64,000 nt of DNA from an uncultured Ectothiorhodospiraceae bacterium. GTDB lineage: Bacteria > Pseudomonadota > Gammaproteobacteria > Nevskiales > Oceanococcaceae. The position numbers and the translations under genes were made by a program. Under the pieces are notes generated by a model. It saw nothing but the letters and a program-made list of their open reading frames with translations, did no database searches and had not been told where the DNA came from. The DNA lies in assembly GCA_937141935.1 (NCBI GenBank), contig CAKZQS010000046.1, positions 62,001 to 126,000 of the forward strand. The letters are read 5' to 3'. Shown here one piece after another: positions 5,771 through 55,487 of the stretch (position 1 is the stretch's first letter; every line of letters begins with the position of its first letter).

Positions 5771-6030
5771 GCTCCGAAGCACCCAAGACCGCCGGACAGG
5801 AGGACGCGGCGCAGGAGCGCGGCGTGCGCCTGGCCATTCGCATCCTGCTGGCGCTGGGCCTGCTCAGCGTGCTGGCGGAGTTCGTGATCCACCGGCATAC
5901 CGAATTCGGCTTCTCCGCCCTGCCCGGCTTTTACGCGCTGGTGGGCTTTGCCGCCTATTGCGCCATCGTGCTGGGCGCCAAGGCCCTGCGGCCCTTGCTG
6001 AAGCGGCCCGAGGACTACTATGGCGACTGA
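5767..6030 (+). CDS. Small two-helix membrane protein of the Mrp-like operon
   Basis: An 87-residue protein. The first 20 residues are polar and Glu-rich. Two hydrophobic segments follow, LAIRILLALGLLSVLAEFVI and a second one around GFYALVGFAAYCAIVLGAKA, separated by a His/Glu-containing loop. The C-terminus, RPEDYYGD, is charged. ATG 5767 overlaps the previous stop and its end overlaps the next gene by 11 bases, so it is clearly a member of the operon. I do not recognise the family. Its position between two antiporter-like subunits suggests an accessory or assembly role. Confidence 0.75.
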   Translation: MSSEAPKTAGQEDAAQERGVRLAIRILLALGLLSVLAEFVIHRHTEFGFSALPGFYALVGFAAYCAIVLGAKALRPLLKRPEDYYGD

Positions 6031-11003: not shown

Positions 11004-11098
11004 CGCTTTACACTACCGCGCAAACGCGCTTTGATGAACCCGGCGCGAACGCCGCCCCCCGTCGAGGGACTCGAGACACCCGCCAGCTACATTTTATC

Positions 11099-11866
11099 GT
11101 GCACCCCCTGGATCAGGTCCTGGCGCTGCCGGCCTTTCACGACAATTACATTTGGTGCTGGGCCGCGCAGGGCCAGCTGCACGTCGTCGACCCCGGCGAC
11201 GCCGCGCCCGTGCGCGCGCACCTGGAGGCCAGCGGCCTGTCGCTGGGCAGCATCCTGATCACGCACCACCACCCCGACCATGTGGGCGGCGTGGCCGCGC
11301 TGCGCAAGCTGGCCCCCGAGGCGCCGGTATACGGCCCGGCCGCCGGACCGTTCAGCGACCTCAGCCAGCCGCTGCGCGAGGGCGACCGCATCGAGACCGG
11401 CGGCGCGCAGTTCGAGATCCTGGCCACGCCGGGGCACACACTGGACCACATTTGTTATGTGCACCCCAACGCGCTGTTCTGCGGCGATACGCTGTTCGCC
11501 GCCGGCTGCGGGCGCCTGTTTGAGGGCGAGCCGGCGCAGATGCAGGCCTCGCTGGCCAAGCTCGCCGCCTTGCCCGACAGCACCCCGGTGTACTGCGCGC
11601 ATGAATACACGCTGGCCAACCTGCGCTTTGCCGAGGCCATGCACCCCGAGCACGCGCCCACGCGCGAGCGCCGCGTGCAGGTGCAGGCCCAGCGCGACAA
11701 GGGGGCGATCACCCTGCCCTCGTCCATAGGCCTGGAGCGCAAGACCAACCCCTTCCTGCGCGCCGGCGACCCGGCGCTGCAGCAGGCCCTGCGGGCCCAG
11801 GGCCACCGCGCCGATGATGCGCTGAGCGCCTTTACCAGCCTGCGCCAGGCCAAGGACCGGTTCTGA
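11099..11866 (+). CDS. gloB: Hydroxyacylglutathione hydrolase (glyoxalase II)
   Basis: A 255-residue metallo-beta-lactamase-fold enzyme that hydrolyses S-lactoylglutathione to lactate and glutathione, the second step of methylglyoxal detoxification. It begins at the family's usual LPAFHDNYIW pattern. Metal-binding motifs are THHHPDHVGG, ATPGHTLDHI, LFCGDTLFAAGCGRLFEG and YCAHEYTLANLRFA. The glutathione-binding C-terminus GLERKTNPFLR is present. GTG 11099 was chosen because the family starts only a few residues before this pattern; longer in-frame extensions run into the divergent gene. Confidence 0.94.
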   Translation: MHPLDQVLALPAFHDNYIWCWAAQGQLHVVDPGDAAPVRAHLEASGLSLGSILITHHHPDHVGGVAALRKLAPEAPVYGPAAGPFSDLSQPLREGDRIETGGAQFEILATPGHTLDHICYVHPNALFCGDTLFAAGCGRLFEGEPAQMQASLAKLAALPDSTPVYCAHEYTLANLRFAEAMHPEHAPTRERRVQVQAQRDKGAITLPSSIGLERKTNPFLRAGDPALQQALRAQGHRADDALSAFTSLRQAKDRF

Positions 11867-11886
11867 GCGTGCGGGGGGATACGGGG

Positions 11887-13350
11887 ATGGGAGCCCGCCA
11901 TCGCGCGAGGCGCGCGACACACGCCCTGGCTGCGCTGGCGCTGCTGGCCGCAGGCGCCCTGCTGCCGGCCACGCCCGCCTTCGCCAACGCCGCGGCGGCG
12001 CCGGCCGAGGCCGAGCTGTGGCCGCGGCTGGCGGCGCAGCAGAGCCTGGCCCACATCGAGCACCCGCGCATTGCGCTGTGGGAGCGGCGCTGGCGGGCCC
12101 AGGCGGCCCAGCTCCGGGTGATCTTCGAACAGGGCGGGCACTGGCTGTACCCGGTCATCGACGCCGTCGAGGCCCGGGGCCTGCCCGGCGAGCTGGCGCT
12201 GATCCCGGTCATCGAAAGCCGGCTGCTGACCCAGGCCGAGTCGCACAAGTCCGCCGTGGGGCTGTGGCAGATGCGCGCGCCGACCGCCACGGCCCTGGGC
12301 CTGCGCATCGACGACTGGGTGGACGAGCGCTGCGACCCGCTGAAGGCCACCACGGCCGCGCTGGACTACCTGCAGGCGCTGCACGACCGCTTTGGCAGCT
12401 GGCCGCTGACGCTGGCCGCCTACAACGCCGGCCAGGGCCGTGTGGCCCGCGCGATCCGCAGCGCGCGGCGCGGCGGCCGCCCGGAGGGCTATTGGGACCT
12501 GGACCTGCCCACCGAATCCGTCGACTACGTGCCGCGGCTGCTGGGCCTGGCGCGCGCGCTGCACGACGTCGAGGGGCTGCGCCTGCCCTGGGTGGACCCG
12601 CAACGCGCGCCGATCGTGCTGCCCACCGGCGGCGCGCGCGACGTCGAAACCCTGGCCGCGCTCAGCGGCGCCTCGATCGCCGAAATCTACGCCTACAACC
12701 CGCAGCTGCGACGCTGGGCCTTGCCGCCCGGCGGCCCCTGGCGCGTTCTGCTGCCGCAGCGGCGCGCGAATGTGGCGCCCACGCTGCGCATCGAGGCGGG
12801 CGCGGGCCTGCCGCACTGGCGGCGCATCGAAGTGCAGCCGGGCGACTCGCTGGGGCGCCTGGCGGCCGAGCACCAGACCCGGGTGCGCCTGATCCAGCGC
12901 GCCAATGGCTTGACGGGCGACCGCATCCGTATCGGCGAACCGCTGTGGGTCCCGGCGGGCCGGCTCAGCGTGCCCGACGCCACGCTGCAGGCCGTGGCCA
13001 GCCGTGGCCGGGTGACCGGCCAGCCCGGCGCGCTGCCGGGGCAGGAATGGGTCACGGTGGCGCCCGGCGACTCGCTGTGGCGGCTGTCGCGCGAATATGG
13101 CCAGTCGGTGGCGCAACTGCGGCGCTGGAATGCGATGGGCCGCGACGAGGACCTCTACCCCGGCCAGCGCCTGCGGGTGGCGCCGCCGCCGGGTCGGCGC
13201 CTGACGCTGCATCGCGTCGCCGCCGAGGACTCGCTGCCCGGCGTGGCCGAGCGCTACGGGGTCAGTGTCGGCGAGTTGCGGCGCTGGAACCGGCTGGGCA
13301 GCGGGCGCCTGCCGCTGCAGCGCGATCTGGTGGTTTTCGCCCCCGAATGA
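11887..13350 (+). CDS. mltD: Membrane-bound lytic murein transglycosylase D with three LysM domains
   Basis: A 487-residue secreted protein. After an N-terminal signal (hydrophobic run ALAALALLAAGALLPATPAF) comes an SLT domain at about residues 75-225. Its catalytic glutamate is E110 in IPVIESRLLTQAES, and it also has AVGLWQM and LAAYNAGQGRV. Three LysM repeats follow, starting near WRRIEVQPGDSLGRLA, WVTVAPGDSLWRLS and HRVAAEDSLPGVA. LysM domains bind peptidoglycan; the SLT domain cleaves glycan strands to 1,6-anhydromuramyl products. ATG 11887 has a G-rich Shine-Dalgarno stretch 8 bases upstream; GTG 11869 is an in-frame alternative. There is no lipobox, unlike E. coli MltD. It is immediately downstream of gloB. 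Confidence 0.93.
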   Translation: MGARHRARRATHALAALALLAAGALLPATPAFANAAAAPAEAELWPRLAAQQSLAHIEHPRIALWERRWRAQAAQLRVIFEQGGHWLYPVIDAVEARGLPGELALIPVIESRLLTQAESHKSAVGLWQMRAPTATALGLRIDDWVDERCDPLKATTAALDYLQALHDRFGSWPLTLAAYNAGQGRVARAIRSARRGGRPEGYWDLDLPTESVDYVPRLLGLARALHDVEGLRLPWVDPQRAPIVLPTGGARDVETLAALSGASIAEIYAYNPQLRRWALPPGGPWRVLLPQRRANVAPTLRIEAGAGLPHWRRIEVQPGDSLGRLAAEHQTRVRLIQRANGLTGDRIRIGEPLWVPAGRLSVPDATLQAVASRGRVTGQPGALPGQEWVTVAPGDSLWRLSREYGQSVAQLRRWNAMGRDEDLYPGQRLRVAPPPGRRLTLHRVAAEDSLPGVAERYGVSVGELRRWNRLGSGRLPLQRDLVVFAPE

Positions 13351-37287: not shown

Positions 37288-40029
37288 ATGCGCGGCAGTC
37301 CCACTGCGGCTGCCCATACCGACGAGCCTCGGCGCCGCCAGCGGCGCAGGCGCAGTGCGTTGCTAGGTCGTCGCACAACCGCCGGCCTGGGTTTGCTGGG
37401 CGCGGCGCTGCTGCTTGCGCTCTTGTTGACGGCGGCCCACGGCCAGCGGCTGCTGGCCCTGCCCAATGCCTGGCTACTGGAACAGCTGCAAAGCCTGGGG
37501 GGAACCCCGGCGCGGCAACACCCGGTGGCCGTGGTCAAGCTGCCGCCGCTTGCGGTGCTGCGCGATGAGGTGCGCTGGCAGGCCCTGGTCGATGCGCTGC
37601 AGGCGCAGGGCGCGCGCCGCATCGTGCTGACGGCGCTGCCGGCGCAGCCCGCCGTGCTGGCCGCGCTCGCCCGGGAGCCGACCCTGCTCTTCGCCGTCAA
37701 CACCGAGGCGCAATACGCGGCGCTGCTCGCCGCCGGTGTGGGCGCCGGCCAGATCGTCAGCAACCGCACCCCGGAGAGCACCGGCGCCTATGTGCGCAGC
37801 CAGCGCGGCCGCCCGCCACGCGCGGCGATGCCCCCCACGCTGGAGCGCAGGCTGGCGGGCGATTACGCCCCCGACATCGCCCTGCCCCGCAGCGGCGCGT
37901 TCCCGATCCGCTACGGACGTCGCGCGGCGGGCATCGCCCTGCTTCGCGGCAGCCGCGTGCTCGCTGGCGACGCCGCACCGGTCGCCGGCCGCATCGTACT
38001 GGTCGGCCGCGACCTGCTGCCGGATGAGCCCGGCTACTACGTCTCCCCCGACCCCGAACGACCGCGGCCGCTGGTCGAAATCCAGGCGCATGTCGTCGAT
38101 GCGCTGCTCAACGAGCGGGTGCTGCGCCCGCTGGGCGGCCTGCCCACAATGCTGCTGCTGGTCGCCGTGTGCTTGCTGACGCTGTGGCTGTTCCCGCGAC
38201 TGGGCGTGCTCTTTGCCAGCGCCGCCACCGCGGCGCACATGCTGCTGTGGGTGTTGCTGGCCACGCTGCTGATCTTCGCCGCCGGGCTATGGCTGCCCCT
38301 GGTGGAAATCCTGCTCGCCCAGGCCACGATGCTCGCTCTGGTTGTCAGCGCCATCGTCCGCCGGGAAGAGCGCACGCTGGGCGAAATCCTGCACGACCTG
38401 GGTACGCGGCTGGAGTCGCGCCTGCGCCCCACGCTGAGCCGCAGCGAACAGGAGCGCTGGAGCGCCATCAGTTCGCTGACCCGCCAGCTGCTGACGCTGA
38501 ACCGGCAAATGTTCCTGGTGCCCGTCTCCGCCAGCCACCTGCGCGCGGTGCACGCGGACAACTGCCGTTTTGAGCAGATCGTCGAGCCACGACGCGACTA
38601 CCGGCGTGCGCCTTATAGCGAGGCGCTGGAGGTGGGCGGCCTGTACGCGGTGCAACGCGAATTCCTGCCGCGCGAGCCGGATGATGTGCAGTATCTGCTG
38701 CCGCTGGAGTTTGCCGGCCAGTTGCGCGGCTACTGGATGTTCAGCGTGCCGGAATCGGTGGCGGCGCAAACCACGCTGCTGGCCACCACCGCCGAGGAAC
38801 TGGCCCGCCGGCTCAGCGAATACCTCTATCACGCCGCGCCGGCACCGCCGCGCGGTCTGGGCCCCTGGCTGGCCCGCCTGTTCGACCCGCGCTCGACGCG
38901 GGCGATCTACCAGCGGCTGCGCGAATCGCTGCTGAGCATGGACCAGCGCATGCAGCTGCGCGACCGGGCCAGCGCCAGCCTGATGTCCGCCTATTGGGTT
39001 TTTGATGGCTTCGGCCACCTGCAACTGCTCAATCGCGCCGCCGAGAGCCTGGCCCGCAAGCAGGAGATCCCGGCCTTTGAGCTCGACGCGCACGGCCTGC
39101 TGCAGCGCCTGCTGGGCGGCCGCATGGAACTGGCGCGCCAGGTGCTGGACCGAGCGCTGATCGAGCAAACCGCCTCGGTGCTGCCGCTGGCACCGCCGGG
39201 CGAGGTCGGCCTGCATGTCTTGCACGTGACGCCACTGGCCGGCGGCGCGGAGCGCGAGGATCGTGCCGAGCAGGCGGTGCTCGGCGGGCTGCTGGTCGAA
39301 GTCATCGACCATGGCGACTCCTGGCGCCTGTGGCAACGCAATGCCGAGCTGCTGTCCAGCCTGGCCCAGAACGTCGCCCGCCACGGCGAGCGGGTGCTGG
39401 CCCAGGCGCAGGCCCTGCCGCAGGACGACGGCAGCCGCGAGGATCTGCAGATCCTGCTGCCCGAGCTGCGCGAACTGGCGCTGGCCCTGAAAAACGAAAG
39501 CGCCGTGGGCGAATGGAGCGGCGGCCGGCTGGCACCGCTGGATCTTGGCGCCCTGCTGCGCGAGGTGGCCACCGAGCGCCGCCACCGGCTGCGCCGCCGG
39601 GCGCTCACCCTGCTGCTGCCGCGCTTCGCCGAGCCGGTCTTCGTCCTGGCGGAGCCGGCGCTGCTGACCGAAGGTCTGGGCCTGCTGCTGGATCTGTTGA
39701 TCGACGATGCCCAGGACGACTCGACGATCCGCGTCGCCCCCTATTGCCGGCTGCGCGAACAGGGCATGGCGCTGGGGCTGTGCCTGGATGACGAGGGCGT
39801 GGGCATGGACCCCGAGCGCCTGCAGGAGGCCCTGCAGGGCGTGCTGCACGCCGGGGATGATGCCGCCTTGGCCCGCCTGCACACACTGCGCCGCCAGCTG
39901 GAGCGCGCCGAGGCCGAGCTCGAGGCCGAAGCGGCGCTGGGCCTGGGGCTGCGCTTCGACCTCAGCCTGCGCCTGATGACCACCCGCCTGCTCGAAGCGC
40001 GCTTCGAGTCCTGGCCGGAGCCCGACTAG
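37288..40029 (+). CDS. CHASE2-domain membrane sensor with degenerate histidine-kinase-like C-terminus
   Basis: A 913-residue protein, first gene of the polymer operon. A basic N-terminus and one membrane helix (about residues 32-50) lead to an extracytoplasmic CHASE2-type domain (about 50-280) with RIVLVGRDLLPDEPGYYVSP and PLVEIQAHVVDALLNERVL. Three hydrophobic helices follow, to about residue 375. The cytoplasmic part has a helical linker, a GAF/PAS-like region near 565 (YWVFDGFGHLQLLNRAAESL) and a C-terminal HATPase-like domain. That domain has a G1-type box LDDEGVGMDPERL near 832 and an N-box position at about 800 where Asn is replaced (LLLDLLIDDAQDD). I see no H-box with phosphorylatable His, so autokinase activity is doubtful. 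ATG 37288 follows the previous gene by 53 bases. It ends 3 bases before the next ATG. Confidence 0.82.
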   Translation: MRGSPTAAAHTDEPRRRQRRRRSALLGRRTTAGLGLLGAALLLALLLTAAHGQRLLALPNAWLLEQLQSLGGTPARQHPVAVVKLPPLAVLRDEVRWQALVDALQAQGARRIVLTALPAQPAVLAALAREPTLLFAVNTEAQYAALLAAGVGAGQIVSNRTPESTGAYVRSQRGRPPRAAMPPTLERRLAGDYAPDIALPRSGAFPIRYGRRAAGIALLRGSRVLAGDAAPVAGRIVLVGRDLLPDEPGYYVSPDPERPRPLVEIQAHVVDALLNERVLRPLGGLPTMLLLVAVCLLTLWLFPRLGVLFASAATAAHMLLWVLLATLLIFAAGLWLPLVEILLAQATMLALVVSAIVRREERTLGEILHDLGTRLESRLRPTLSRSEQERWSAISSLTRQLLTLNRQMFLVPVSASHLRAVHADNCRFEQIVEPRRDYRRAPYSEALEVGGLYAVQREFLPREPDDVQYLLPLEFAGQLRGYWMFSVPESVAAQTTLLATTAEELARRLSEYLYHAAPAPPRGLGPWLARLFDPRSTRAIYQRLRESLLSMDQRMQLRDRASASLMSAYWVFDGFGHLQLLNRAAESLARKQEIPAFELDAHGLLQRLLGGRMELARQVLDRALIEQTASVLPLAPPGEVGLHVLHVTPLAGGAEREDRAEQAVLGGLLVEVIDHGDSWRLWQRNAELLSSLAQNVARHGERVLAQAQALPQDDGSREDLQILLPELRELALALKNESAVGEWSGGRLAPLDLGALLREVATERRHRLRRRALTLLLPRFAEPVFVLAEPALLTEGLGLLLDLLIDDAQDDSTIRVAPYCRLREQGMALGLCLDDEGVGMDPERLQEALQGVLHAGDDAALARLHTLRRQLERAEAELEAEAALGLGLRFDLSLRLMTTRLLEARFESWPEPD

Positions 40030-40032
40030 CTC

Positions 40033-43000
40033 ATGGAAGGGCTGCTGCTGCCGATCTTCCCCGACGGCAGCCTGGCCAGCTCGGTGGTGACGACCGTCTG
40101 GGTGGGCGTGTTCATCGTCGTCTTCTTCAACCTGCGCCTGGGCTGGGTGATGTCCGGCCTGGTGGTGCCGGGTTATCTGGCGCCCATCGTGCTGCTCAAG
40201 CCCTGGAGCGCCGCGGTCATCGTCTTCGAGGCGGCCGTCACCTACCTGATCGTCTATCTGGCCTCGGAGAAGCTCTCGCGGACGGGGCTGTGGTCCAGCT
40301 TTTTTGGCCGCGACCGCTTCTTTGCGCTGATCCTGACCGCCGTCGGCGTGCGCGTGCTCTTCGATGGCTTTCTGCTGCCCGGCCTGGTGGCCTGGCTGGA
40401 AACGCAGGGCGCCGGCGACATCGCCTGGCGCAACGACCTGCAATCCTTCGGCCTGGTGATCCTGGCGCTGATCGCCAACATGTTCTGGAAGCCCGGGCTG
40501 TGGCGCGGCTTGCGGGCGCTGGCGGTGATCCTGGGCCTGACCGTGCTGATCACGCGTTACGTGCTGATGGAGTACACCAACTTCGCCCTCAGCAACATCG
40601 GCTACATGTATGAGGACGTGGCGCAGTCGCTGCTGGCCAGCCCCAAGTCCTACATCATCCTGCTCACCGCGGCCTTCATCGCCTCGCGCATGAACCTGCG
40701 CTATGGCTGGGATTTCAACGGCATACTGCTGCCCTCGCTGTTGGCGCTGCAGTGGTACCAGCCCAGCAAGATCGCCTTCACGCTGGTCGAGGCCGCCGTC
40801 ATCGTCACGCTGGCCCGCCTGCTGCTGCGCAGCCCCTGGCTGGCCAATGCCAACATCGAGGGCTCGCGCAAGCTGCTGTTGCTGTTCAACATCAGTTTCG
40901 CCTATCGCTTCGTGCTGGCCTGGGTGCTGGCGCTGTTCGCGCCCGAGTACAAGATCAGCGACGCCTACGGCTATGGCTACTTGCTGGCCACGCTGATCGC
41001 CCTGCGCATCTTCGACAAGGGCAAGCCGCTGACCATCGTCGGCAGCACCCTGCAGGCTTCGCTGGCCGCGGTGCTGCTGGCCAGCGTCATCGGCTTTGGC
41101 CTGCAGTTTGGCGGCCCACTGACGCAGACGGCCACCCTGGCGGCCCGGCCGCTCAGCCCGCGGCTCGCCGCCGACCCCGGCCCGCTGGACGAGAGGCTGC
41201 GTGCCGACAAGCCACAGCTCTACGCCATCCGCAGCCAGCGCCGCCTGAGCCTGCCCGGGGTCAGCGAGCAGCGCGCCTTTCGCGAGGCCATCGGCCTGCT
41301 GGACGGGCCCGATGCGCTCGACCCCGGCACCTTGCAGGCCGCCAGCCTGATGGCTGCACGTGCCGGCTACGAGCTGTTGGTGGTGGACGGGCGCTGGCTG
41401 TACCTGCGCGAGATCGAGCCCGCGCGCGGCTGGGGCATCTTCGTCATCGATACGCAGGCGCCCAGCCCGCTGGCCCTGGTCTGGCCGACCGGCGCCGACC
41501 ATCGCGAGGGCCTGGACCTGGCGCTGGCCAGCCTGAAACTGCTGCCGGCGCGATACTTCGCCTATGCCACGGCGCCTTCGCGGCTGAACCCGGACGGCAG
41601 CGCCAGCGCGCTGCAGCAGCCGGCCGCCCTGCTCAACATTTTCCAGGACAGCGTGGCCAGTGGTGAGTTGCTGCAGGTGCGGGTGCTGGATGCCACGCTG
41701 CAGGCCCGCCTGCAGCGCGAGCGCGGCGTGGGCAGCGAGGACCGCAACCCGCCGAGCAGCCTGTGGGTGGATGGCCACCTGCCAGCCGCCCTGCCGCTGC
41801 GTCGGTTGCAGCAGGTGCTGCCGGGGCTGCAGACCTACTGGGATGCGCCGCCCTACGCCAACCCCCAGCGCGGCCAGGCGCGCGACGGCTTTGCCGAGCT
41901 GCTGCTCAGCCGCGCCGCCTTCCGCCGCTTCCTCGGTGCCAGCATCGGCGGCGGCGAGGTGGCGGCGCTGAGCACGGCGCAACGGGTCGAGGGTTTCCTG
42001 GCGCAGTGGCTGTTCGCGCCCGAAGAGCGCTTCGCGGCGCGCGGCAGCGGCAACTACAGCGCACCCAGTCTGGAGGAACTGCTCTATGCCGAAGAGGAGC
42101 TGCTGCGGCCGCTGCTGGAGCTGGCGCCCAGCGCGCAGGCGCGGGAATCCGAGGCGCTGGACCGGCTGGACGCCGTGGCCCAGTCGCTGGGCTACCGCAT
42201 CACGCGGCTGCAGCAGGTGGCCAGCGGCGAGCATTACCTGATTCTGTCGGAGCCCCCGGGCAGCCGCCGCCACTGGGGCCTGCTGAGCCTGCGCACCGGC
42301 CCGGCCAGCGACGTGCTGCTGCAGGTGCCGCGGCCGCTCTCGGAGGCGGGCAGCGCCGAGTTCGCGATCAGCCTGTTTGAAGACATGCAGGCCCGGGGCC
42401 TGTTCGTCAGTACCGCGCACCCGCGCGCCGCCGTCGACGGCAGCGCCGACCCCATGCTGCCGGCCGGCCGGCAGTCGCTGTTCAACCTGAGCGCGGAGAC
42501 CTTCCTGCGCACGCGGGCCGATCGCCCCGCCCTGTTGCTGCACGTGCGTGGCAAGGGCGTCGCGCCCGAGCTCTACGAGGATCTGGGCGGCGCGCCCAGC
42601 GAGGCCCTGGTGGTCGCCGACCGGCAACCCCCGGGCCCGCTCGCGCGAGCGGTCCACGCGGCGCTGGATGATTATGGGATCGAGCACGTCGACGCCTACA
42701 GCGCCGCGGATGCGGCCAGCCTGGGGGTCGACTCCAGCCTCCAGGCGCGGGTGGCGCAGCCCTTCCCGCAGGCGGAGTTCGTGGCGCTGCGCCTGTCGCC
42801 ATCCACGCGCGCCGCCTTCCGCCGCTCGACCAGCAACCGGGTGGAGCTGATGCACTTCCAGGCGCTGGACATCCCGTCGCAGGACATCCCGCTGCGCGAC
42901 TACCTGGCCGGCCGTGGCTTGCGCGGGGGCGCGCCGGTGCCCCCCGAACTGGCCGGGGCGCTGGCCGACTACCAGCTGCGGCCGGATATCGTGGCGCTGG

Positions 43001-43230
43001 AGCGCGCGCGGCGCGCCGTGCCGGGCTATCGTTTCCTGCGTATCGCCGACCCGCGCAGCGTGCAAACCTTCCTCGTTGTGCAGGGCCCGGAGGGGCGTTT
43101 GGGCGGCGTGTGGAACCTGAACCCGCTGCGCCAGCGCGGCGGCGAGATCGTATCCCTGAGCGCGCTCGATGCCCCGCGGATCGAGCGCTTCACGGATCGG
43201 GGGGAGCCGTGGCTACGATTCGACCCGTAG
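40033..43230 (+). CDS. pgsC: PgsC/CapC-like polymer-synthesis membrane protein with duplicated core and large extracytoplasmic region
   Basis: A 1065-residue protein. Residues 1-360 hold about ten membrane helices with two PgsC/CapC-like units: NLRLGWVMSGLVVPGYLAPI at 33 and NLRYGWDFNGILLPSLLALQ at 221, each followed by a helix with VFEAAVTYLIV or LVEAAVIVTLA. PgsC of Bacillus is about 150 residues and is the partner of the PgsB ligase in poly-gamma-glutamate synthesis, so this is a two-unit version. Residues 365-1065 are soluble, probably periplasmic, with Arg/Leu-rich alpha/beta regions and no catalytic motif that I recognise. The next gene starts inside its 3' end with a 22-base overlap. 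Confidence 0.86.
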   Translation: MEGLLLPIFPDGSLASSVVTTVWVGVFIVVFFNLRLGWVMSGLVVPGYLAPIVLLKPWSAAVIVFEAAVTYLIVYLASEKLSRTGLWSSFFGRDRFFALILTAVGVRVLFDGFLLPGLVAWLETQGAGDIAWRNDLQSFGLVILALIANMFWKPGLWRGLRALAVILGLTVLITRYVLMEYTNFALSNIGYMYEDVAQSLLASPKSYIILLTAAFIASRMNLRYGWDFNGILLPSLLALQWYQPSKIAFTLVEAAVIVTLARLLLRSPWLANANIEGSRKLLLLFNISFAYRFVLAWVLALFAPEYKISDAYGYGYLLATLIALRIFDKGKPLTIVGSTLQASLAAVLLASVIGFGLQFGGPLTQTATLAARPLSPRLAADPGPLDERLRADKPQLYAIRSQRRLSLPGVSEQRAFREAIGLLDGPDALDPGTLQAASLMAARAGYELLVVDGRWLYLREIEPARGWGIFVIDTQAPSPLALVWPTGADHREGLDLALASLKLLPARYFAYATAPSRLNPDGSASALQQPAALLNIFQDSVASGELLQVRVLDATLQARLQRERGVGSEDRNPPSSLWVDGHLPAALPLRRLQQVLPGLQTYWDAPPYANPQRGQARDGFAELLLSRAAFRRFLGASIGGGEVAALSTAQRVEGFLAQWLFAPEERFAARGSGNYSAPSLEELLYAEEELLRPLLELAPSAQARESEALDRLDAVAQSLGYRITRLQQVASGEHYLILSEPPGSRRHWGLLSLRTGPASDVLLQVPRPLSEAGSAEFAISLFEDMQARGLFVSTAHPRAAVDGSADPMLPAGRQSLFNLSAETFLRTRADRPALLLHVRGKGVAPELYEDLGGAPSEALVVADRQPPGPLARAVHAALDDYGIEHVDAYSAADAASLGVDSSLQARVAQPFPQAEFVALRLSPSTRAAFRRSTSNRVELMHFQALDIPSQDIPLRDYLAGRGLRGGAPVPPELAGALADYQLRPDIVALERARRAVPGYRFLRIADPRSVQTFLVVQGPEGRLGGVWNLNPLRQRGGEIVSLSALDAPRIERFTDRGEPWLRFDP

Positions 43231-45692
43231 ACCGCAAGCCGCGGGTGCAGCGCGCGGCGCTGCTGGCGGCTCTGCTGCTGCTTGGCCTGGCGCTGATCTA
43301 TGGGCCGCGCCTGCTCGATATCGTCACGCAGCGGCTGCAGACCACCGAGCCGAACACCCGCAGCCTGCTCAGCTACCGCCTGGACGGCGAACGCTGGACC
43401 ACCTTCGACGTCGACCCGCCAGACGGCCAGGTCCGCCTGCGCAGCAGCGCGCTGCTGCCAGCGGCGGCGATCGAGGCCGAGCCGGGCACCCTGGACCTGC
43501 GCTACGCCCTGGAGTACGAGATTCTCGACGCGCTGGGCCGGGTGCTCGCGGGCCAGCCGGCCTACTTCGAAGCCAGCCTGCCGCTGCAGCAGGGCGCCGG
43601 GGGCCAGCCCGAGGCACGGCTGCGGGTGCCGGGCGCCGAGCCGCGCGTCGCCGCCTCCTCGCAGGCGCTGGTGCTGGACCTGCGGCCCTGGCCGCAGGCC
43701 GACCAGATTCGCCTGCGGCTGCGCGAGGCCGCCGCGCCCCTGAGCGGCGTGGTTGTCGGCGTGTACGTGCACGAGCGCATTGGCCCGCGTGCGGCGCTGC
43801 GCGAGTGGCTGCGGCGCAGCTTCGGCCAGCGCGAGCAGCTTGCCGACCCGCTGGTGTACCCACCCGGCCTGCTCGACCGCGAGGACCGCGTGCGGCTGAT
43901 CGCCAACGACTGGCGTGCCGTGGGCCCGCTGGGCGTCGAGGGACGCGACTATGCGGTCGAGCGCATCCTGTACGACCGCGATGCCGTGGCCTGGCAGCCA
44001 CCGATCCTGCCCGCAGGCCTGTTTCTGGATGCCACGCGCGCCGCCGTGCTGCCGGTCGGCCCGGGCCCGCAACGGCGGCAGCTGCACCTGGTGGCCGCCG
44101 ATGGTGCGACCGGCGGCGAGGCCACCCTGTTCTTCAGCTGGCGCGGCGCGCAGCCCTGGCAGCAGGACACGGAGACACTGCGCGTCGCGCTGCCGGCGAT
44201 CCTCGAGCGCGAGCTGCGGCCGGGCTGGTTTCTGGCCCGCGCCGATCGCCCGCTCACGCTGCGCAGCTACGACCTCAACGGGCTGGAGATCACGCCGGAG
44301 AAACGCTACAGCCGGCTCTACCGCCTGGGGCCCGGGCAGGCGCTTGACTACCCGCTGCGCCACCACGCCGGCGACCCGGCGCCGCTGCGCATCGACCTGC
44401 GCCGCAGCCTGACCGAGCGAGCCGCCGGCATCGACGTCAAACTGGACGTGCGCTACGAACTCTACGACGAGGCCGAGCGCCTGCTCGACGCCGGCACATT
44501 GCCCGGCCGGGCGCCCCCGATCGACCCCTACGACTATCCCAACGACAACCCGATCGGCCACTACGTGTCCATGCCGGCGCAGCACTATCTGCTGGCCGAC
44601 CCGCGGGTGCGGCGCCTGCGCCTGCTGGCGGACGGCGAGCGCCTGGCCGGCGTTTTCACCCGGCCGGCGGGCCTGCGCCACCGGACCCGCGTCCCGCAGG
44701 ACTACCAGCCCTGGCTCGACCCCAGCGACGAGGGCGGGCAGAACATCTGGTTCGGGCTGAGCCCGGAGCACCCGGCGGACCTGCGCCGCGCGCCGGGTGT
44801 CTCCAAGCTGCTGCGCGTGCAGGCCGCGCCGCCTGAGCGCGACCCGCTGCTGGCGGAGGGGAGTTACCAGTGGGCCTCCATCGAGCCCGCGGGCGATTGG
44901 AGCGGGCGCTGGCTCTTCGAGCCCCGCGATCCGGCGCAACCCACGCGGCCCCAGGCGCGCGCCAGCGTATTCAGCCCGCTCGCCGTCGGCACGCCGCTGC
45001 GCCCGCAACTGGTCAGCCCGGCCGCCGGCGGGCTGGTCCGTGCGCAGGTCTACGCCGAAGCCAGCCAGGCCGGGCTGCTGCAAATCCAGGTCAACGGCCA
45101 GAGCCTGCCGCCGCGGCCGTTGGCCGTCGGCGCGCAGCTCCACCCGCTGCCGCCGTTGCCGCCGGGGCCGCAGGCCCTGACGCTGCAGGCGCCGCCGGGC
45201 CGCTACTGGCTGAACCAGTGGCAGGATGCGCCGGGCAGCCTGCTGCGGCGGCTGGTGGCGCGCCTGCCGGCCGATACCGGCGGCGCCGCGGGGCTGCGTT
45301 ATCTGCTGCCGCGACCGCAGGAGGCGCAGACGCTTTCGGGCCGCCTGTACCGCCGGCCGAACAGCCCGCCCGTGCGCCTGAGCGTTCGCGTCGAACCCGC
45401 CACGCGGCCGCGTAACCAGCCGCTGCCCAGCTGGACCGTGGCCGACCGCGAGTTCCACTTTCCCAGCCCGCCCGCTGACCGCGTTCACGTGCCCGGGCAC
45501 AATCCTGCCGAGATGGCCGCGGGGGAGGCCTTCTTCATTCCCCTGGGGCCCGACCTGGAGACCGACATGCTCGCCATCGAGATCCGCCTGCACGGAGCGC
45601 CCGAAGCCCTGCTGGGCCTGAGCCGGCTGGAGGCCGGCCTGGCCGAAGAGCTTCGGACCCGCCGCGACCGCCCCGATGATGCGCCGCGCTAG
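43209..45692 (+). CDS. Single-pass periplasmic protein of the polymer operon
   Basis: An 827-residue protein starting at GTG 43209, preceded by GGGGGAG 4 bases upstream and overlapping the PgsC-like gene by 22 bases. The N-terminal 12 residues are polar and basic. One membrane helix (AALLAALLLLGLALIYGP) follows, and all the rest looks periplasmic. It is beta-rich with several Arg/Leu strand patterns (RVRRLRLLADGERLAGVFTR) and one region IDPYDYPNDNPIGHYVSMPA. No known domain is recognised. It is likely a scaffold, or a periplasmic partner that links the inner-membrane synthase to the outer-membrane protein encoded two genes downstream. Confidence 0.82.
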   Translation: MATIRPVDRKPRVQRAALLAALLLLGLALIYGPRLLDIVTQRLQTTEPNTRSLLSYRLDGERWTTFDVDPPDGQVRLRSSALLPAAAIEAEPGTLDLRYALEYEILDALGRVLAGQPAYFEASLPLQQGAGGQPEARLRVPGAEPRVAASSQALVLDLRPWPQADQIRLRLREAAAPLSGVVVGVYVHERIGPRAALREWLRRSFGQREQLADPLVYPPGLLDREDRVRLIANDWRAVGPLGVEGRDYAVERILYDRDAVAWQPPILPAGLFLDATRAAVLPVGPGPQRRQLHLVAADGATGGEATLFFSWRGAQPWQQDTETLRVALPAILERELRPGWFLARADRPLTLRSYDLNGLEITPEKRYSRLYRLGPGQALDYPLRHHAGDPAPLRIDLRRSLTERAAGIDVKLDVRYELYDEAERLLDAGTLPGRAPPIDPYDYPNDNPIGHYVSMPAQHYLLADPRVRRLRLLADGERLAGVFTRPAGLRHRTRVPQDYQPWLDPSDEGGQNIWFGLSPEHPADLRRAPGVSKLLRVQAAPPERDPLLAEGSYQWASIEPAGDWSGRWLFEPRDPAQPTRPQARASVFSPLAVGTPLRPQLVSPAAGGLVRAQVYAEASQAGLLQIQVNGQSLPPRPLAVGAQLHPLPPLPPGPQALTLQAPPGRYWLNQWQDAPGSLLRRLVARLPADTGGAAGLRYLLPRPQEAQTLSGRLYRRPNSPPVRLSVRVEPATRPRNQPLPSWTVADREFHFPSPPADRVHVPGHNPAEMAAGEAFFIPLGPDLETDMLAIEIRLHGAPEALLGLSRLEAGLAEELRTRRDRPDDAPR

Positions 45693-46587
45693 TGGCGCCG
45701 CGGCCCGACGGGGGCGCGAGGTGGCCGTGCTCGGCCTCGCCGGTGGCCTGTTGCTGGCCCCCGTGCTGAAGGCCGCGCCCTGCCCCGAGGCCGACCTGGA
45801 AACGCTGTGGCGCGCATCCAAGGTGGCGCAGCACCGTGCGCCGGAGCCGGCCGAGGTCGCCCGCTCGCAGGCGCTGTTTGAGCGGGAGTTCGCCAGTGTC
45901 GCGCTGCCTACCGCGCAGGAGTGGGCCGAGGCGGGCTTCACCCTGCTGTCGGGCTGTGCCGACGGCCACCACCTGCGCGTGCTGCGCGACGCGCAGGACG
46001 CGGGCCAGGGCTTTTATGTCTTCAACCCCACGCCGCGGCGCAATGTCGTGATCCAGGCCCCGCATCGGGATTCCGACCTGCGCAGCGGCGAGATCGCCCT
46101 GCGCCTGTTCGTCGAGGGCGGCCTGCGCGCCGGCGCCTGGAATACCGTGCATCGGCGCGGGCCCGAGCGGCAGAGCCTGGACACCGACCTCGCCCACGTG
46201 CAGCGCAGCCATTTCCAGGCGCTGACGGCGGCGCTGGCCCGCGAGGCCCCGGAGGCGCGACTGCTGCAGCTGCATGGCTACGCCCAGCAGCGGCGGCGCA
46301 GCGCGGCCGGCCGCGCCTCGCAGCTGATCCTGTCGGCGGGCCGGCGCGAAGTCAGCGCCGCGGCCGCCGACCTGCACGCCTGCCTGGTGCGGCGTTTCGG
46401 CACCCAGGCGCTGCTCTACCCCACCCAGGTGCAGGAGCTGGGCGGCACGACCAATGCGCAGAGCCGGCTGCTCCAGGCCCAAGGCCACGGCGGCTTTTTG
46501 CACCTGGAGTTGTCGCGGCCGCTGCGCGAGGAGCTGGTGGAGTCCCCGCCGCGCCGTCGCCATCTGCTCGAGTGCCTGGATGGCTGA
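45676..46587 (+). CDS. Secreted putative zinc hydrolase, possible polymer depolymerase
   Basis: A 303-residue protein with a signal sequence (VAVLGLAGGLLLAPVLKA). A metal-site-like pattern is visible: APHRDSDLRSGEIALRLF with H130 and E139, then H200 in LQLHGYAQ. A candidate catalytic acid, E278, is in FLHLELSRPLR. This H...E...H plus late Glu layout resembles the zinc carboxypeptidase-type and phage PghP-type poly-gamma-glutamate hydrolases, though overall similarity is low. Its place between synthase and exporter genes fits trimming or release of the polymer. It overlaps the upstream gene by 17 bases and the downstream one by 8. Confidence 0.75.
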   Translation: MMRRASGAAARRGREVAVLGLAGGLLLAPVLKAAPCPEADLETLWRASKVAQHRAPEPAEVARSQALFEREFASVALPTAQEWAEAGFTLLSGCADGHHLRVLRDAQDAGQGFYVFNPTPRRNVVIQAPHRDSDLRSGEIALRLFVEGGLRAGAWNTVHRRGPERQSLDTDLAHVQRSHFQALTAALAREAPEARLLQLHGYAQQRRRSAAGRASQLILSAGRREVSAAAADLHACLVRRFGTQALLYPTQVQELGGTTNAQSRLLQAQGHGGFLHLELSRPLREELVESPPRRRHLLECLDG

Positions 46588-49500
46588 GGCCACGCGTCCG
46601 AGCGGCGGCCGCCGGGCCGCCGGGCAGCGGGTCCGGCGGCTGGCCGGGCTGCTGACCCGGCTGCTGGCGCTCTCCGCCTGTGGCCTGGCCCATGGCGCCA
46701 ACCCCTGGACCCGGGTGGCGCTGGACGATGCCTACCTCGAGCCCTACCCCGAGCCCTGGATCTGGGAAGACGCGCGGGCACAGCCCTGGCTGCTGGGCCC
46801 CTTGCACGATGAGTCGGGCCAGCTGCGCGGGCAGCGCCTGCAACTGCCGGCTGGCGCGTGGCTGCGCGTCCACGCGCCGGAGGGCGGCTGTGGCCTGCCC
46901 TTGCGCGTGCTGCGCGGCGGCGTCGAGGGTCTGTGGGTCGAACAGCGTGGTCGCTGCAGCGACCATGGCCAGGCGCTGCTGTTTGACGACCCGGTGCATG
47001 CGCTGCGCGAGCTGCGCCTGAGGCACCGCGACGGCGCCTGGCCGCGGGACTGGCGGGTCGAAGTCGGCCACGCGCTTGGCCGCGGCAATGCGGCGCCGGC
47101 CCGGCAGGCGCTGCCGGCACAGGGCGAGCGCGTCCACCTGCGTCACCCCGGGGGCCGGCATGAATGGCCCCTGCGCCTGGGTCCGGCGCACCAGGGTGAA
47201 CTCCAGGTACGGGGTCCGGCGCGCCTGGAGCTGCAAAACCGCGCGCTGGTGGCCTCGGAGATTTCCGACTGGACACTGCAGGTCGAACGCCTTGCGGACA
47301 GCCGCGAAGGGCGGCGCTACGAGCAGCGCAGCCTGCGCCTGAGCGCCGGCGCCGCCCGACAGCGGCGCTATTCGGTGGACGGGCAGTGGCAACCGCTGTC
47401 CTCGGCCGCCGTGCGCTGGCTGGACGTGCCGCCCGGTGAGCACCGGCTGCGCTTCGCCAGCAGCCGCGACAGCCTGCTGCAGATCTATGCCTTGCAACCT
47501 TCGGACTGGTTGCTGCCGGGGTTCAACGCCCCCGAGCCCGCGCCGGCCGCGCTGCTGGGCCCGGTGCGCCAGGGCCGCGCGCCGCTGGCCGCGGCGCACC
47601 TGGCTCGCGTCGGCCGCGCGCTGGATCTGTTGGACGACGGCCACAGCCTGGCCGCCGCGCAGGTGCTGGCGGCGCCCATCAGCGAAGCCGCCGCCTCGGC
47701 CTCCCATGCCCTGGCCCGGCAGATCGATGCCCGCCACGCCTACTGGACGGCGCTGCACCCGCGAATGCGCAGCGGCGGCCGCGAGAACTACGCCCTGACC
47801 GGCCTGCTGCCTCGACCGACGCGCTGGGAGCACCGCCGCCGCGACGCCACGCACCCGGTGCAGTTGCGGGCCTGGGCAGACAGCCTGCCGGAGTTGCTGA
47901 TGAGCCGACCGGTGCCGCTGTGCGGCGGCAATGTGCGCTGCGCGGACGGCGGCACCCCGGGCCATGGCGCCCTGATCTGGAACCTGCCGCCACAAAGCCG
48001 CCCCGGTCGCATCGAACTGCTGGCCGATCTGCCCGACGAGGGTCCCGAGCCTCTGCACTTCTGGCTGCAGCAGGGCGAGGAGCCGCCGCGCCTGCTCCGT
48101 CTCGAGCGGCCCGCGCGCGCCGACTGGTCGCATCAGCAGCCGCTGCTGGGCATCCTGCATGCGGCCTGGGACGACGCCCACCAGGGCGCGAGCCGGCCCG
48201 TCCGGCCCGATCCGCGGCCACCGCTGCGGCCGCTGGCCCGCATCGAACTGCCGCTGCGCGCGCAGGGCGATACCTTGCGCCTGTGGAGCGTCCAGCCCGG
48301 CAGCCGGTCGATCGGCTGGGCCCTGCGCTACCGCGCCGAGCGCGACTTCCGGCTGGCCCCGCAAGATCTGCGTGCGCGCATCGCCGCACGCGGTGGTGGG
48401 CTGGACCTGCTGCTCGCCACGCCGCCCCGCGCCGCCAGCGCCGGGACGGCCACCGGCGAGGCCCGGCCCCGCGCCGAAGACGCCGACCTGTATCAGCACC
48501 TGGCGCCGCTGCGCCGGCGCATCCAGGCACGAGCCGCGGCCTGGCAAGCGGCCGTAGGCCCCGCGCCGACTGGCGGTCGCGCGGGCGACCCGGCCCAGGC
48601 CCGCGCGGCGCTGGATCGCGGCGACGCGCTTGGCGCCCTGGAGCGCCTGGGGGATGCCTGGGCCTACCCTGATCGCGCGACGCGCCTGCAGGCCGCGCGG
48701 CTGCGCGACGCCGCGCTGCAGGCCGCCGGTGAGCCGGCGCTGCGCCGGCATTTCCTGCAGGCGCTGACTGTGCACGGCGATGCGCCGGCGGCGGCCTGGG
48801 CGACGCAGACGCTCGAGGCGCTGTATCGGCAAAGCGGCAACGCCATCGCGTTGCAGCGCCTGCAGGCCCATCGCCTGCTGCACCGGCCCGGCGCCCAGGC
48901 GCGCCACGCCGCCGCACTCGCGGACGCGCTTGCGCTGGGCGGCGCGATGGAGGACGCCACACTCTTGCGCCTCAGCGCCGGCCTGCCTGCGCGACCTCCC
49001 ACGCAGGCCGTGGGCGGCTGGCAGGCGCGGCTCGCGCTGGCCACGGCGCACGCCGGCGTCATCGACGCACGGGCCGACAGCAGTGACGCGCTGACCCGCG
49101 GCCTGCGTGCACTGCCCGAGCAGGCGGTCGTGCTCCAGGTCGAGGGGCCGCAGCAGCTGCGCCTCGAGCTGCGCGCGCTGGCCTTCGACGCGGCCCGCAG
49201 CCCGGCCACGATGCTGCACATGGCGCGCAACGGCGAGCCCTACCGTCTGCCTCTGGCGGAGCGTCCGCTCAGCACCGGGCTGCGGCCGGAGAACGCGCCG
49301 GGACGCCTGGCCGTTGCGACCCACAGCGACCTGTCCTTGGGCCCGGGCCGGCACAGCCTGACCCTGCGGCCCGAGTCGGGCGAAGTCTATGTCCGCCCGC
49401 TGCTGTGGCAGGGCGATGCCCCGGCGCCGCCGCTGCAAAACCCACCGGCGCGCCGCGGCGGCACGGGAGCCAGGGCGCGCCTGGTCGCGGCCGTTCAGGA

Positions 49501-51368
49501 TTTCGCGGCCGAGCCCGCCCTGGACGCGGCCATCCGTGCCGAGTTGGCCTATGCGGATCTCGCCAGCACCGGTGACAGCGAGGAGCCCGGCCGCTGGATG
49601 CAACTCGTGCGCGAAGCCACCCGGTGGCGCGGGGTGGACCTGGTTGAGGCCAGCGCCGGGCTCCGCCGGGAGCGCGTTTCCGGGCCCAGCTCGCCGCTGC
49701 AACGGGTGCGCCACGCACTGCTCGGTGCCACGCCGGAGGGCGCGGAGCTGCTGGCGCCGGGCGAACGGCTCTGGCTGGCCCCGCGCCTGTTGCAGCCGCA
49801 AACGCTGAGCGTGCACCTGCGTCTGCGTGACCTGCCCTACAACGTCCCGGTTCCGGCGAGCGCCACGCTGCGCGTCAACGGCGAGCCGATGCGGCGCTTC
49901 GCCGTGGGCGCGGCGCCGCACAGCGAACGCATTGCGCTGTTGCCGGGCGAGCACCGCATCAGCCTGCACTTCGACGAGGCCTACGCGCAGCAGCTGCTCG
50001 AGGTGCGGGTCGACAGCCCTGTGCCCTGGCGCCAGGAGCCCGGCCTGGACCTGCGCCACTGGCACTGGGCGACCGCGGCCGAGCCCATCCTGCTGACCCT
50101 GGAGGGGCCGGCGCTGCTGCGCATCCAGCGGCAGGGCGCGAGCCAGCCCGAGCTGCGGCATTACGCGGCCGGCCGCCAGCAACTGCAGCTGCAACCCGCC
50201 CCCGGCGCCCGTCGCAGCGCCTACCGCATCGAAGGTCTGGAGCTGCGCGCCGTGCCCCGGCCCTGGGCGCCGCCACGACGACCGCCCGATCCGCCGGCCT
50301 ATCCCGACTGGGACAGCCTGCGGCTTGCACAGGCACCCGCCGTGCCGCTGCAGCGCCCGCCCGTCCCGGACAGCGCGGGGGGCACCTGGACGCTGGACCT
50401 GCGTGGGGTGGACCGCCAGCTGGGCGCCGACGAGCCCTCCGACAGCGCCCAGCCGAATCGCTTTGTCGAGGCGGCGCTGCGCTACCGCCGGCTGCGCGTG
50501 CGCGATCGCGTCTGGCTGCGCGCCGACCTGCTGCACCGGCAGCAGGAGCTCGGCGAACCGACCTGGGGCCTGGGGCTGCGCGGCGAATGGCACCCGGACG
50601 ACAGCCCCTGGTCGAGCCGCCTGCGCCTGAACGGGCTGTGGCAGCAGCAGCCGCTCAGCGCCGCCTGGCTGGGCGAGGCGGTCTTTGACCAGGACTACCG
50701 CTGGGACTTCGCCCGTCGCCAGGACCTGCGCTGGCGCGGCAGCCTGTTCGGTCGCCGCGTGCGTGCGCCCGAGCCGGCGCGGCCGCTACAGACCGTCGAT
50801 GCCGATGTCTACACGCCCTACAAGGAAGACCACCGCTATGGCTGGCGCAGCGAGCTGCAATACGTCCATGCGCCCTGGCGGGACACCCGCTGGCGCGCCA
50901 CCCTGGGTGCGAACAGCAATGAGAAGCTGGACGTGGACCATGGTCGCGCCGGGCTGAGCTGGGATCAGTTGCTGGGCCCCGTGGCCGCGCGCCTCGACGC
51001 GCGCTACCGGCTGTACCTGGCCGACGACGACCGCCGCAAGCGCAGTGAGCGCACCAACTTCGGCCTGGAGCTGGACTGGCAGCTCTGGCTGCAGCGGCGC
51101 CAGCGCCTGAGCCTGCGCGTGGATGGCGACTACGAGCTCGAGCGCGGCCGCTGGTCCTGGCAGCTCGGCCTGCGCTGGGACTGGCACGACGGCCGCCGCC
51201 TGCGCGACTACCCACCGGGCAGCCCCCGATTCGCCGAACTGCGCCGCCTGCACGCGGCGGGCCGGCTCGCCCCCGGCGCGCTGCGGCACGGCCACGAGGT
51301 GGCTGACGATGGCGCCAGCCATGGCGCCGGCGATGACCAGCGCGACGGGGATGACCAGGGCGACGGCC

Positions 51369-51376
<8 letters not shown>
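46580..51376 (+). CDS. Giant outer-membrane protein: periplasmic beta/TPR-like region plus C-terminal beta-barrel
   Basis: A 1598-residue protein with a signal sequence (LLTRLLALSACGLAHG). The long middle (residues about 45-1290) is Arg/Leu-rich and beta-rich, with a helical TPR-like part near residues 665-800 (RAALDRGDALGALERLGDAW). The C-terminal 280 residues carry alternating amphipathic strands, for example WLRADLLHRQQELGEPTWGL, RTNFGLELDWQLWLQ and WQLGLRWDW, as in outer-membrane barrels. The TPR-then-barrel layout recalls PgaA and BcsC, exporters of other polymers. After the last strand comes a 50-residue tail rich in Asp and His, which is unusual since barrels normally end with an aromatic residue. 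It overlaps its neighbours by 8 bases on both sides. Confidence 0.83.

Positions 51377-55487
<4,111 letters not shown>

Follow-up and report, generated by a model that had tools for sequence, protein, structure and literature searches.

What does a bacterium build with six large, tightly packed genes, two of which encode oversized relatives of the polyglutamate synthesis proteins PgsB and PgsC? The question is raised by positions 37288-55487 (plus strand) of a 64,000-nucleotide stretch of DNA from an uncultured Ectothiorhodospiraceae bacterium (contig CAKZQS010000046.1, positions 62,001 to 126,000), which we call the window; its coordinates are given for the plus strand unless marked otherwise. 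The six adjacent genes, p1 to p6, have predicted products of 913, 1065, 827, 303, 1598 and 1372 amino acids. We propose, with a probability of roughly three in four, that this operon encodes an envelope-spanning machine with which diderm bacteria synthesize and export a gamma-glutamyl (polyglutamate-type) polymer. The system is best read as PgsBC in a diderm form that lacks PgsA and has a parts list like that of Bcs, Pel and Alg secretion.

Work on polyglutamate (PGA) synthesis has to date centered on Gram-positive bacteria and a few small proteins. PMC4497714 counts PgsB/PgsC pairs in 250 species, and its reference list includes work on polyglutamate production by Fusobacterium nucleatum; PMC5542703 places PGA capsule loci across most phyla, including Planctomycetes and Fusobacteria. 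In listings of open-licence papers we found no description of the enlarged six-gene system, nor of any machine that takes a polyanionic polyamide across two membranes.

A ligase core and a duplicated membrane partner

The last gene of the operon, p6 (51369-55487), encodes an enlarged PgsB-type amide ligase. Its ligase core (residues 699-1020; 53463-54428) matches the PgsB profile TIGR04012 with an E value of 2.3e-57 and carries the P-loop GTRGKS at residues 710-715. A hydrophobic stretch at residues 668-691 (53370-53441), a predicted membrane segment, precedes the P-loop, and a stretch of this kind also begins the short PgsB proteins. Further upstream lies an N-terminal solenoid, the repeats of which (residues ~268-370; 52170-52478) match designed alphaRep chains by profile (best E value, 7.5e-11); we take these chains to be HEAT-like repeats. 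A C-terminal extension follows the core. Seven full-length relatives share 36-42% identity with the window protein, aligned over almost the entire length, and the blocks GGWGTRGKSG (the P-loop), KTTG, ECM.L, TN..PDHE and NNR.DR..RS are invariant across eight long ligases. When window p6 is aligned with five short PgsBs, GTRGK, AKT, ECMAL, TN...DH and N.R.DR..RS recur in all six rows. The profile search of the Protein Data Bank (PDB) matched no solved PgsB or PgsC chain, p6 retrieving designed repeat proteins only, and a plasmid search with p6 gave seven records that each span 15-23% of the protein.

The presumed partner of the ligase is p2 (40033-43230), which matches the Pfam family CapC (PF14102; E value, 4.1e-39; 134.1 bits against a cut-off of 27) in two stretches and the PgsC profile TIGR04011 with an E value of 4.6e-18. 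The better CapC stretch covers residues 24-159 (40102-40509). A second unit at residues ~214-335 (40672-41037) is supported by the two PF14102 stretches and by comparison of the two units with hhalign (probability, 69.6%; E value, 4.2e-5; 23% identity). All 11 proteins in the p2 alignment, the window protein included, have a CapC match. The original prediction had staked its description of p2 as PgsC-like and of p6 as PgsB-like on such profile matches, and both were found. For p2 the description was incomplete: the PgsC units are there, and two inactive p4 relatives, arranged in tandem in the periplasmic part of the protein, had been overlooked.

A predicted hydrolase and its inactive relatives

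The product of p4 (45676-46587) is presumably a secreted zinc hydrolase. It has an N-terminal hydrophobic segment (residues 16-34), and its AlphaFold2 model has a predicted local distance difference test (pLDDT) score of 90.6. The p4 alignment was confined to members of 270-330 amino acids and has 45 rows with the window protein, 41 of which formed the folding alignment. Compared by VIA, the modelled fold is closest to Atu2144 (2odf; Z score, 14.2), YndL with gamma-PGA (5onj; 12.7) and N-formylglutamate amidohydrolase (FGase; 2q7s; 12.6), followed by two gamma-PGA hydrolases from phages, 21dc and 3a9l (PghP), both with a Z score of 11.9, and then by aminopeptidases and carboxypeptidases with Z scores near 10. 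The predicted fold is nearest to FGase and the gamma-PGA hydrolases, which rank above the classical carboxypeptidases, with an identity of only 13-14% to 2q7s and 2odf where aligned. Family profiles were silent: no Pfam family was found in more than one of the 45 aligned members (best E value, 0.01), and the PghP family PF05908 matched neither p4 nor any of these members, nor any protein of the window genome. The p4 profile gave three weak, unrelated matches among PDB sequences and one weak match in PHROGs.

The active site points in the same direction as the fold. Aligned with a profile of nine PghPs, which was used since a single PghP sequence aligned too weakly with p4, residues H130, D134, H200, E278 and R284 fall opposite H40, E45, H103, E165 and R171 of PghP. 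All five are invariant in the 45 aligned members, as are their equivalents in all nine PghPs, and the glutamate and arginine are six positions apart in both groups. According to PMC6506827, PghL binds zinc through His41, Glu46 and His102, its Glu165 is equated with the catalytic Glu270 of carboxypeptidase A, and Arg171 anchors the substrate; the PghP equivalents listed there are His40, Glu45, His103 and Glu165, the folds that follow PghP in likeness to PghL are 2odf and 2q7s, and the PghP/PghL family is M86 in MEROPS (PMC6506827). From this alignment we assign to p4 the putative zinc ligands H130, D134 and H200, the putative base E278 and the putative substrate anchor R284. The predicted protein shares its fold, the paired zinc ligands, the base and the arginine with PghP and YndL (PghL) of Bacillus and its phages. 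It differs in having an aspartate in place of the zinc-binding glutamate, in its hydrophobic leader and additional N-terminal part, and in lacking a PF05908 match.

Stand-alone p4-like proteins (E values from 2.3e-60 to 4.9e-14), some with lipoprotein-like N termini, were seen in genomes without a long ligase, at 11074-12075 (-) of locus L137, 3-881 (-) of L125, 8762-9835 (-) of L139, 8941-10263 of L138 and 9563-10639 of L140. The hydrolase family therefore extends beyond the operon.

Where else in the operon is this fold found? By hhalign, p4 resembles two regions of p2, domain A at residues ~402-556 (41236-41700; probability, 96.8%; E value, 2e-10) and domain B at residues ~665-944 (42025-42864; 97.8%; 8.9e-13), and the two domains resemble each other (E value, 9e-15); against p1, p3, p5 and p6, all probabilities were below 1%. 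In a whole-genome search the p4 profile also matched within the p2 frame in five of six operon genomes, with an E value of 9.5e-13 in the window genome. Domain B has arginine opposite H200 and arginine, tryptophan or methionine opposite E278 in 11 of the 11 aligned p2 proteins, and arginine or alanine opposite H130 in 10, with one gap. Opposite D134 an acidic residue (E or D) is kept in 9 of 11, and opposite R284 there is arginine in seven proteins and lysine in one (R or K in 8 of 11). Domain A, for which the short alphaproteobacterial p2 proteins align poorly, has arginine opposite H200 in 6 of 11, glutamate opposite D134 in 6 of 11 and mixed residues with a single histidine opposite H130.

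Judged by these alignments, p2 combines a PgsC-type membrane part with tandem hydrolase-like domains that are without zinc histidines and without the catalytic base. Because domain B has lost both and, in 8 of 11 proteins, retains arginine or lysine where the substrate arginine would lie, it looks like a domain that only binds, and we infer that the dead hydrolase domains of p2 act as guides that bind the polymer. A broader proposal, for which we see the odds as even, is that a PgsC-type subunit captured two copies of the polymer-cutting enzyme of its own system as a periplasmic conduit that grips the polymer. Together with p3 and the p5 barrel, this subunit would form a polyamide secretion machine that follows the logic of cellulose, alginate and Pel secretion, is built from unrelated synthase parts and has spread across many diderm phyla.

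A predicted outer membrane barrel, membrane anchor and sensor

The largest protein, p5 (46580-51376), is predicted to combine periplasmic repeats, beta-sandwich domains and a C-terminal outer membrane barrel. We folded its last 944 residues (pLDDT, 76.7). The model contains eight helices (model residues 17-145) that form an alpha-solenoid resembling tetratricopeptide repeats (TPRs) at residues ~671-799 (48590-48976), then beta-sandwich domains, and a 14-strand beta-barrel at residues ~1269-1535 (50384-51184). Local confidence in the barrel is high, with a pLDDT of at least 85 in 22 of 27 ten-residue blocks, and VIA matched it to CymA (Z score, 19.9), OmpG (up to 19.1), PelB (15.4; 17% identity) and BcsC (14.9). 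Foldseek returned the BcsB crown at a low TM-score, a match that may concern the modelled beta-sandwiches. Among 27 p5 members, TPR profile hits were weak and confined to single members; one member has an OmpA domain (E value, 2.7e-20) and another a weak LysM match (0.024), as would be expected of a periplasmic part that touches the wall. Alignment inserts place the OmpA domain in the p5 of L087 (4171-10005) and the LysM match in that of L037 (4389-9749). In four loci of Methylococcaceae/Crenothrix (L054, L065, L070 and L076), p5 seems to be split into two open reading frames (ORFs), because the ORF ahead of p6 has only 716-736 amino acids and starts 3.2-3.4 kb after p4.

The product of p3 (43209-45692; GTG start) has a single hydropathy peak at residues 18-36, consistent with an N-terminal membrane anchor; the large remainder is presumably periplasmic. 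No Pfam family reached its cut-off in the window protein, and among 24 members there were only single-member hits, some of them to Ig-like or beta-sandwich domains. A beta-sandwich module is seemingly common to p3 and p5 (hhalign probability, 78%; E value, 1.8e-5).

At the head of the operon, p1 (37288-40029) encodes a predicted membrane sensor with a modest match to Pfam CHASE2 (29 bits; cut-off, 26.3), hydropathy peaks at residues 32-58 and 284-357 and a PAS/GAF-like middle part. CHASE2 was matched at an E value of 0.01 or better in 5 of 16 aligned members. HATPase_c is present in 8 of the 16, with no match in the window protein at an E value of 1, and two members (L016 and L018) stop short of this domain. 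HisKA was not matched in window p1 and occurs in only 2 of the 16, L092 and L109, which are ordinary hybrid kinases by sequence; the idea that p1 is a standard histidine kinase was rejected on these grounds. The immediate upstream neighbor of p2 is p1 in the window and in the 13 other loci with a readable p2 start; L108, with a short p2 ORF, was left unjudged. In an Alteripontixanthobacter locus (L059), a small ORF at 5392-5778, response-regulator-like as judged by its sequence, sits between p1 and p2, and p1 may signal to a receiver there. The original prediction had anticipated the CHASE2 sensor, the single-pass p3, the secreted metal-hydrolase-like p4 and the beta-barrel of p5, and the profile match, the hydropathy plot, the predicted fold with its PghP-like active site and the structure model agree with it in turn.

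Conservation and spread of the operon

Do these genes belong together? Scanning the genomes of 84,980 species by pattern, we obtained 335 p6 relatives and examined the best 80 of these 335 loci, the titles of which all name diderm groups. Synteny was counted in the 54 of the 80 loci that have at least 8.3 kb upstream of p6, with flanks of 10 kb and with profiles built in part from the same loci: p3 was present in 51, p4 in 48 and the p5 barrel in 45, and all three occurred jointly in 41. Because the flanks cut into p2 and mostly exclude p1, the counts for these genes are lower limits, with p2 in at least 47 and p1 in at least 15 of the 54 loci, the latter including L092 and L109, which were picked up by the iterative search. 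One locus (L084) has p5 as its only partner, two (L036 and L073) lack p4, and gene order or strand is altered in five (L053, L055, L062, L088 and L091). An intact p5 mostly has p4 on one side and p6 on the other, separated from or overlapping each by at most a few dozen bases. The genes p3, p4, p5 and p6 are neighbors in very distant bacteria. Homologues of the four genes other than p2 and p6 are not scattered, in keeping with the original prediction, which had tied its proposal to their joint occurrence.

Within the class of the window bacterium, full-length p6 was found in 6 of 369 genomes. These six and one marginal fragment (G146; E value, 2.9e-4) are the only genomes with p3, and p4 is present in the six and in six others, one of them a strong match (G279; 1.5e-58). 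The probability that the six p6 genomes fall by chance within the seven p3 genomes is about 2e-12, a figure that ignores that the six span only four families. By tblastn, the order p1 to p6 is conserved in G145, G388 and G160; in G226 tblastn detected p2, p4, p5 and p6 and the profiles added p1 and p3, and in G381 p1 to p4 lie on one contig and p5 and p6 on another. As controls, we searched five short-PgsB loci of the class (L113-L117; 20 kb each), in which the profiles of p1, p3, p4 and p5 found nothing. Chance neighborhood was rejected on the basis of these control loci and of the genome-wide overlap of p6, p3 and p4.

In the Erythrobacteraceae, p3 is short, p4 lies directly before p6 or overlaps it, and p5 was not found. 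In a midpoint-rooted p6 tree, the p5-less Erythrobacteraceae cluster with p5-bearing alphaproteobacteria, the p5-less label taking in loci too short to show p5. Among 85 genomes of its order, the window genome alone has a p6 match, and a genome of the same genus (G065) has none, a pattern suggestive of horizontal gain or widespread loss. For Marinobacter daqiaonensis (L066), recent transfer is suggested by a p6 that nests within Halomonadaceae on short branches. Two p6 loci, each on its own contig, are present in Vreelandella massiliensis; L073 is without p4, and the p3 ORF of L034 is short.

The junctions within the window operon are as tight as originally described, with 3 bases between p1 and p2 and overlaps of 22 (p2/p3), 17 (p3/p4), 8 (p4/p5) and 8 (p5/p6) bases. 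The GC content at third codon positions is 0.88-0.92 across the six frames and homologues exist for each of them, and on these two grounds we rejected the notion that the frames are GC-driven artefacts. For the same reasons we read two long antisense ORFs opposite these frames, 38287-43065 (-) with 1592 amino acids and 46352-50593 (-) with 1413 amino acids, as shadows of high-GC coding frames. To the left of the operon, collinearity is absent in the three nearest genomes.

Discussion

How does the operon compare with known systems? With Bacillus PgsBCA(E)/CapBCA(DE) it shares a PgsC-type partner and a PgsB-type ligase that has a membrane segment ahead of its P-loop. However, p6 is about three times longer than Bacillus PgsB, with a HEAT-like solenoid and a C-terminal part, p2 carries two PgsC units and two pseudo-hydrolase domains, and p1, p3, p4 and p5 are additions to the PgsBCA set. 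The short PgsB-PgsC loci of the class have ligase cores 28-31% identical to p6, and a PgsC-like neighbor was found with the p2 profile in two of the five, but their ligases have only 400-412 amino acids against 1372 in p6. On the outer side, p5 resembles PelB, BcsC, AlgK-AlgE and PgaA in joining periplasmic helical repeats to an outer membrane barrel, and differs from PelB/BcsC-type exporters in its 14 strands and in the beta-sandwich domains between repeats and barrel. Polysaccharide export operons of this kind also hold a periplasmic hydrolase or lyase. The inner membrane machine is an amide ligase here, whereas theirs is a glycosyltransferase.

We hypothesize that p6 and p2 polymerize glutamate in an ATP-dependent manner and move the chain across the inner membrane. 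In the periplasm, the chain would be held and guided by the paired dead hydrolase domains of p2, a bridge to the outer membrane would be formed by p3 together with the helical and beta-sandwich part of p5, and the p5 barrel would serve as the exit. Meanwhile, p4 could trim the chain or clear mislocalized chains, and p1 could sense an envelope signal and gate synthesis. That the genes form one trans-envelope machine, as originally predicted, is supported by the checks on the parts and by their co-occurrence; the identity of the polymer, and that the machine makes, trims and exports an acidic amide chain, are what we infer from these parts.

Several findings weigh against this reading. The scores of p6 against TIGR04012 (194.5 bits, and 198.1 bits in the genome search) and of p2 against TIGR04011 (65.8 bits) lie below the equivalog cut-offs of 222.7 and 96.45, so that the identity of the substrate is not assured. 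PgsA/CapA (PF09587) has no match in the window genome, which is 98.29% complete, and is matched in 7 of 14 control genomes. By hhalign the similarity between p4 and PghP is weak (probability, 4.5%; E value, 0.009, with 0.32-0.81 for the other operon proteins), and the predicted template modelling (pTM) score of 0.49 makes the placement of the p5 domains unreliable. The p1 family is poorly conserved, at 14-25% identity. Among the 54 loci, p4 is missing from six, the p5 barrel was not found in nine, of which five are from Erythrobacteraceae, and in L071 none of the partners was found. Relatives of p4 also occur in six genomes of the class that have no long ligase.

Could the same machine have a different product? 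The ligase might join another amino acid, or glutamate to a lipid, peptide or glycan, and the exported molecule would then be a conjugate and not a homopolymer. PgsB is a Mur-ligase-like enzyme, and this fold serves many amide bonds; the scores of p6 and p2 below the equivalog cut-offs, the large extra domains of p6 and the lack of a PgsA match in the genome are what one would expect of such a departure. We nevertheless regard another product as unlikely, if worth keeping in mind, since p4 keeps the active-site pattern of gamma-PGA hydrolases, including the substrate arginine, and has these enzymes and N-formylglutamate amidohydrolase among its nearest folds. Export itself would fall away if the polymer formed an osmotic or structural gel that remained periplasmic or at the inner membrane, with p5 serving as an anchor or porin. 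Several hosts are Halomonas, Vreelandella or Marinobacter, which are salt-dwellers, the Erythrobacteraceae retain ligase, channel and hydrolase without an adjoining p5, and the best match of the barrel, CymA, is a cyclodextrin porin. Such a gel seems improbable to us given that intact p5 mostly sits tightly packed between p4 and p6 and has its repeats and barrel in the same order as PelB and BcsC, while the grouping of p5-less Erythrobacteraceae with p5-bearing alphaproteobacteria fits a later loss of p5.

A regulatory role is harder still to credit. A CHASE2 gene heads the operon and directly precedes p2 in the 13 other readable loci, as might be expected if the operon served surface sensing or the response to envelope stress and its ligase had diverged and no longer polymerized. 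But the P-loop and ligase motifs are invariant across the eight long ligases and common to the short PgsBs, the sequence of p1 is poorly conserved, and the hydrolase and the barrel would be left unexplained. We therefore give this role very little weight and favor a synthase-exporter of a polyglutamate-type polymer.

In summary, the operon presents a complete list of parts, the order of which can be tested, for moving a polyanionic polyamide across two membranes, and some of its hosts are culturable, for example Marinobacter, Halomonas and Methylovulum. The dead-hydrolase tandem of p2 suggests in concrete terms how a nascent chain may be held, and p4 is a candidate for a new gamma-PGA-degrading enzyme. 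If our reading is right, an amide polymer would be handled by the same solution that diderm bacteria use for sugar polymers, namely a synthase with a scaffold, a hydrolase for trimming and a barrel.

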